Assembly: GCA_035236585.1 (NCBI GenBank)
Contig: CP141135.1
Coordinates: forward strand, 1,956,001-2,020,000
DNA length: 64,000 nt
Direction: 5' to 3'
From: Warburgia ugandensis
Taxonomy: Eukaryota > Streptophyta > Magnoliopsida > Canellales > Canellaceae
The notes under the pieces are model-generated. The model did not search any database. It was not told where the DNA came from and saw only the letters and a list, made by a program, of their open reading frames with translations. Position numbers and translations under genes: made by a program. This document shows positions 39,225-39,356 of this stretch, piece by piece (position 1 is the first letter of the stretch; each line of letters begins with the position of its first letter).

Positions 39225-39356
39225 ATCTTGTCATGTTTTCCCACAGCTTTCTTGAGCTTCGTACCGAGATCTGCTTTATTTATAGGCAGAAAAAGCTGGT
39301 TCAGAAACCGACCTGAGTACCAAGTTCAAGAAAGCCGTGGAAAAGCATGCTCCGAT
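39225..39356 (-). ncRNA. MIR396: MIR396 precursor hairpin
   Basis: On the minus strand the 5' arm (39342-39322) reads TTCCACGGCTTTCTTGAACT plus T, one base different from canonical miR396-5p at position 7 (G for A). The 3' arm (39257-39237) reads GCTCAAGAAAGCTGTGGGAA plus A, which from memory equals Arabidopsis miR396b-3p. The arms pair almost perfectly. The stem extends outward through a GCATG/CATG helix and inward through GGTAC/GTACC, with a terminal loop region of about 64 nt. miR396 down-regulates GRF transcription factors and so limits cell proliferation in leaves and other organs. The plus-strand reading would give a less canonical pair, so minus is chosen. Confidence 0.93.

Follow-up and report, generated by a model that had tools for sequence, protein, structure and literature searches.

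A MIR396 locus of Warburgia ugandensis with G at guide position 7, and its predicted pairing with GRF sites

The hairpin found at 39225-39356 of the analysed window (64,000 nucleotides, C10:1956001-2020000; positions are those of the window unless a contig is given) is, with little doubt, a functional MIR396 gene that belongs to a set of nine found in the genome and to a duplicated pair featuring G at guide position 7 (G7), and that acts on GRFs through a shifted bulge. As judged from its sequence, it very probably contributes to repressing those growth-regulating factor genes on which its sister copies also act. This reading draws on the Rfam match, the z-score of the fold, the duplex overhangs, the invariant arms, ten GRF sites and the pairing energies, all observed here together with the paralogues and the better model score of the minus strand. 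It draws also on the activity of a 7A>G variant in Arabidopsis (PMC3252272), on table values for G7 small RNAs and on an ash degradome study. Counting against it, plus-strand RNA folds nearly as well and has a slightly more extreme z.

The locus is an ordinary MIR396 gene. The mechanism that a first-pass annotation had proposed for it is right, and was already known, as was the G7 form of the miR396 family; the novelty implied there for the variant does not hold, as the variant, the stronger G-C pair and the activity in Arabidopsis were all published in 2012 (PMC3252272). New is the member pair hosted by W. ugandensis. The locus adds a well-formed MIR396 pair to the family, in a genome that combines a G7 guide with the standard GRF site.

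Hairpin, strand and duplex

The first-pass annotation had placed a MIR396 hairpin on the minus strand at 39225-39356, and had suggested folding as a check. The Rfam model RF00648 matches the minus strand at that position with 81.6 bits, above the gathering score of 80 (Table 1). Folding is in agreement: the minus-strand RNA reaches -56.1 kcal/mol against a mean of -30.2 +/- 3.7 for shuffles (z -6.96), and 0/200 shuffles fold as well. RNA of the plus strand reaches -52.1 kcal/mol (z -7.39). Each z is relative to the shuffles of its own strand, and since the plus-strand value is a little more extreme, the strand of the hairpin is not decided from folding alone. The minus strand is favoured by fold energy and by the MIR396 model, which gives 58.5 bits to the plus strand. 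No open reading frame of at least 80 amino acids overlaps the hairpin. Besides MIR396, the sole Rfam match at gathering score in the window is a tRNA gene (45085-45158, plus strand, 60.9 bits).

Table 1. Features of the MIR396 locus (window positions)
Feature	Position	Strand	Remarks
MIR396 precursor hairpin (Rfam RF00648)	39228-39352	minus	cmscan 81.6 bits, E 2.3e-16
Predicted mature miR396-5p, G7 form, 21 nt, TTCCACGGCTTTCTTGAACTT	39342-39322	minus	20/21 bases paired; identical in the C4 copy
Guide position 7	39336	minus	G in this locus and in that of C4; A at the seven remaining loci found
Predicted miR396-3p (star) GCTCAAGAAAGCTGTGGGAAA	39257-39237	minus	duplex with 2-nt 3' overhangs at either end
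Terminal loop and upper stem	39258-39321	minus	differs from C4, unlike the two arms
TATA-like element TTTATTTAAACC, candidate core promoter	39966-39955	minus	identical in C4, within a conserved block

Plant microRNAs are usually annotated on a duplex with 2-nt 3' overhangs and no more than five mismatches, together with small-RNA reads that show precise processing of the two arms. The duplex formed by the 5p and 3p strands of the 39225-39356 hairpin has such overhangs at both ends, and a single mismatch, at position 18. The 5p arm fits the miR396 type UUCCAC[A/G]GCUUUCUUGAAC, and its G7 faces U39245. The 3p strand is identical to what we take to be the miRBase miR396b-3p sequence.

The G7 pair among nine MIR396 loci

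The genome (1.12 Gb, 14 contigs) was searched with the Rfam model at E <= 0.01. The 18 matches correspond to nine loci, each detected on both strands; nine is a lower bound, because the search scores the best candidates only. Position 7 is A in seven loci, located on C2, C6 and C13, and G in two, the window locus on C10 and a copy on C4, so that the difference from miR396-5p noticed in the first-pass annotation is found in 2/9 loci. The A7 loci share arm type and predicted targets with the G7 locus, but differ in the base at position 7, in the loops and in the flanks. The star motif GCTGTGG is present in all nine. An exact 20-base pattern recovers 8/9 loci, the ninth, C13:9595750, starting with TCCCAC. 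The Rfam gathering score is exceeded by the C10 locus only; the remaining eight range from 60.7 to 78.6 bits on the better strand.

A tree built from the nine hairpins of this genome joins the two G7 loci (support 0.979). The placement of the pair among the A7 loci has a support of 0.439, and the direction of the A/G change is therefore not settled by this tree. Six loci are organized in two matching clusters of three (C2:7983735-8068522 and C13:9472085-9603175), whose members pair one to one in the tree, and which by sequence are a duplicated MIR396 cluster.

The two G7 loci are likewise, on sequence comparison, a duplicated, collinear pair. A blastn comparison of the window with about 40 kb of C4 gave collinear matches in inverted orientation for stretches between 25.9 and 52.3 kb, including 38144-38660, 38670-39558, 39785-40338, 40964-41580 and 42910-43467. 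The 5p strand (39322-39342, 21/21) and the 3p region (39235-39257, 23/23) are identical in the two copies. The loop (39258-39321) is conserved at 59/64 aligned bases, plus an 11-base gap. Upstream identity is 74/100 at 39343-39442, 66/100 at 39443-39542, 96/158 at 39543-39700 and 193/291 at 39701-40000; downstream it is 88/101 at 39134-39234 and 111/133 at 39000-39133. Invariant arms within a changed loop and changed flanks are the pattern expected, at the sequence level, for a hairpin retained for its arms. The TATA-like element, located some 600 bases upstream of the hairpin, may mark a promoter. A sigma-70 promoter scan was set aside, its model being unsuited to a plant gene.

The presence of seven A7 loci alongside the G7 pair would allow the C10 locus to be a decayed paralogue that lost expression, G7 being a neutral scar. 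This is very improbable, because 44/44 bases of the two arm stretches are unchanged between the G7 copies against 61-74% of the aligned bases in the four upstream stretches, the C10 hairpin still folds with the z reported above, and the upstream TATA-like block is conserved in the C4 copy. A functional gene could nevertheless be weakly expressed, as its targets would also be served by the A7 loci.

Other sequences in the window were also compared. On the minus strand, 34997-36976 encodes a pentatricopeptide-repeat protein of 659 aa that has an E motif (Pfam), and the gene matches the 40 kb of C4 examined only over 36399-36984. A short repeat, some 100-200 bases long and probably a small transposable element, is found at 3242-3416, 11090-11211, 14417-14573, 14715-14897, 15114-15259, 25726-25896, 30191-30326, 43979-44170, 45679-45859 and 46257-46410, and its copies match much the same set of C4 stretches.

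GRF sites and the shifted bulge

The pattern TTCAAGAAAGCNTGTGGAA occurs at 11 places in the genome, and a control pattern at none. Ten places carry GCCTGTGG, and are located at the ten top-scoring WRC-domain matches out of 41; these ten are full-length (profile positions 1-43, at least 77.6 bits), and the exact GRF site is thus present in 10/10. The other 31 WRC matches score at most 62.3 bits and lack the exact pattern. All ten sites are predicted to pair with the G7 guide with one bulge, so that GRF transcripts complementary to the guide are expected from the genome sequence.

The eleventh place, C7:10013284-10013302 (L016, minus strand), has the site GCATGTGG; it was tried as a target, and excluded from the ten. 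The surrounding GRF-like stretch is broken and has no long open frame, and the nearest intact WRC match mentioned here is some 0.95 Mb away. As the stretch is broken and none of the 41 WRC matches falls there, it is counted as a likely GRF pseudogene still bearing the site. Many WRC-domain matches, several within one open frame, are clustered at C11:24641267-24799082. The cluster looks like a set of genes for tandem multi-WRC proteins, and its matches score below the ten of GRF type.

On the GRF site the A7 guide pairs at -28.4 kcal/mol, whichever C is bulged. The G7 guide pairs at -29.9 kcal/mol when the U forms a bulge between positions 6 and 7 of the guide, and at -27.7 kcal/mol with the canonical C bulge. 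The U-bulge pairing is therefore better by 2.2 kcal/mol than the canonical one, and by 1.5 than that of A7. The bulge-shift argument of the first-pass annotation is correct in energy terms, and the computed energies predict that GRF recognition is kept by G7. The gain over A7 is small, and below the more than 2 kcal/mol given in the 2012 paper (PMC3252272).

A G7 guide might alternatively be redirected to targets of its own, carrying an unbulged GCCGUGG site. On such a site G7 pairs at -33.8 kcal/mol and A7 only at -27.6, and targets of this kind would thus be G7-specific. This is exceedingly unlikely, as the unbulged pattern (GCCGTGG or GCTGTGG) occurs in the genome at nine places, all of them the nine MIR396 loci. 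When two mismatches are allowed, the GCCGTGG form is found at 17 places, the nine loci and eight others; the reversed control yields 10, and the eight are hence at chance level. The genome pattern search, with up to two mismatches, revealed no G7-specific targets without a bulge above chance.

Action on GRFs through the shifted bulge remains the preferred reading, and for W. ugandensis we infer transcription, processing, loading and cleavage along the following route. RNA polymerase II would transcribe the locus on the minus strand into a non-coding primary RNA, DCL1 would cut the hairpin to a 21-nt duplex, and AGO1 would load UUCCACGGCUUUCUUGAACUU. The loaded guide would direct cleavage of GRF mRNA at UUCAAGAAAGCCUGUGGAA, within the WRC-coding exon. 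G7 and G8 would pair with both C residues, the U rather than a C being bulged between positions 6 and 7; with this pairing GRF repression would be kept, and perhaps slightly strengthened.

G7 forms in other plants

G7 forms have been described in Selaginella, pine and poplar by Debernardi et al. 2012, and small-RNA libraries contained most of the miR396 sequences (PMC3252272). In Arabidopsis, miR396_7A>G caused slightly stronger developmental defects, possibly because a G-C pair replaces A-U, with a gain of more than 2 kcal/mol (PMC3252272). The change at position 7, the GRF target family and the G-C pairing argument are common to miR396b_7A>G and the C10 locus, but the former is an Arabidopsis construct (PMC3252272), the G7 of W. 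ugandensis a natural locus pair. The monocot osa-miR396e/f (7-8insG) similarly alter the GRF bulge region (PMC3252272). In these the inserted G abolishes the bulge, while the C10 guide retains one; their pairing is computed at -35.4 kcal/mol from the presumed rice sequence, on a site one base longer.

Within the literature collection searched, 6 papers contain the G7 21-mer in RNA letters, and 13 others contain its 19-base core in DNA letters. The 21-mer is tabulated as pab-miR396b in Chinese fir and as Vv-miR396e in grape, and is a novel candidate in cotton (table value 65). Small-RNA tables from persimmon, grape and cotton give expression values for it. The 21-nt mature sequences of pab-miR396b (pab presumably denoting spruce), Vv-miR396e and dka-miR396r are identical to the C10 guide, the comparison with these other species covering the mature sequence; ptc-miR396e is presumably also a G7 form. 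Persimmon dka-miR396r reaches 16.3 and 5.5 TPM in two fruit libraries, in the first of which the A7 form reaches 62326.7 TPM. Grape novel_mir_42 has table values of 0 and 2897. A form shifted by one base, UUUCCACGGC, with G at position 8, is listed for grape and Amur grape, in the latter with a table value of 16,273. Olive oeu_mir_31 is a 22-nt G7 form in a small-RNA table, and in an ash degradome study a G7 form ending in CTG is paired with a GRF. In Eugenia, the form ending in CTG has a table value of 217,485 against 23,061 for an A7 form.

Since the variant and its pairing logic are published, the locus raises no new question other than the frequency of switching at position 7 and a possible tuning of GRF repression by the A7:G7 ratio. 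A and G could interchange, because the U of the star pairs with either, and the GRF site accepts either by moving the bulge. Position 7 of miR396 might accordingly be viewed, tentatively and with somewhat less than even confidence, as a doubly buffered switch, at which A and G are swapped repeatedly without target loss and with a small change in strength. In Eugenia, the star of the G7 precursor, GTTCAATAAAGC, is of the type found in the A7 loci C13d and C2c, unlike those of the two W. ugandensis G7 loci. This single star sequence, taken outside any tree, hints at more than one A/G change.
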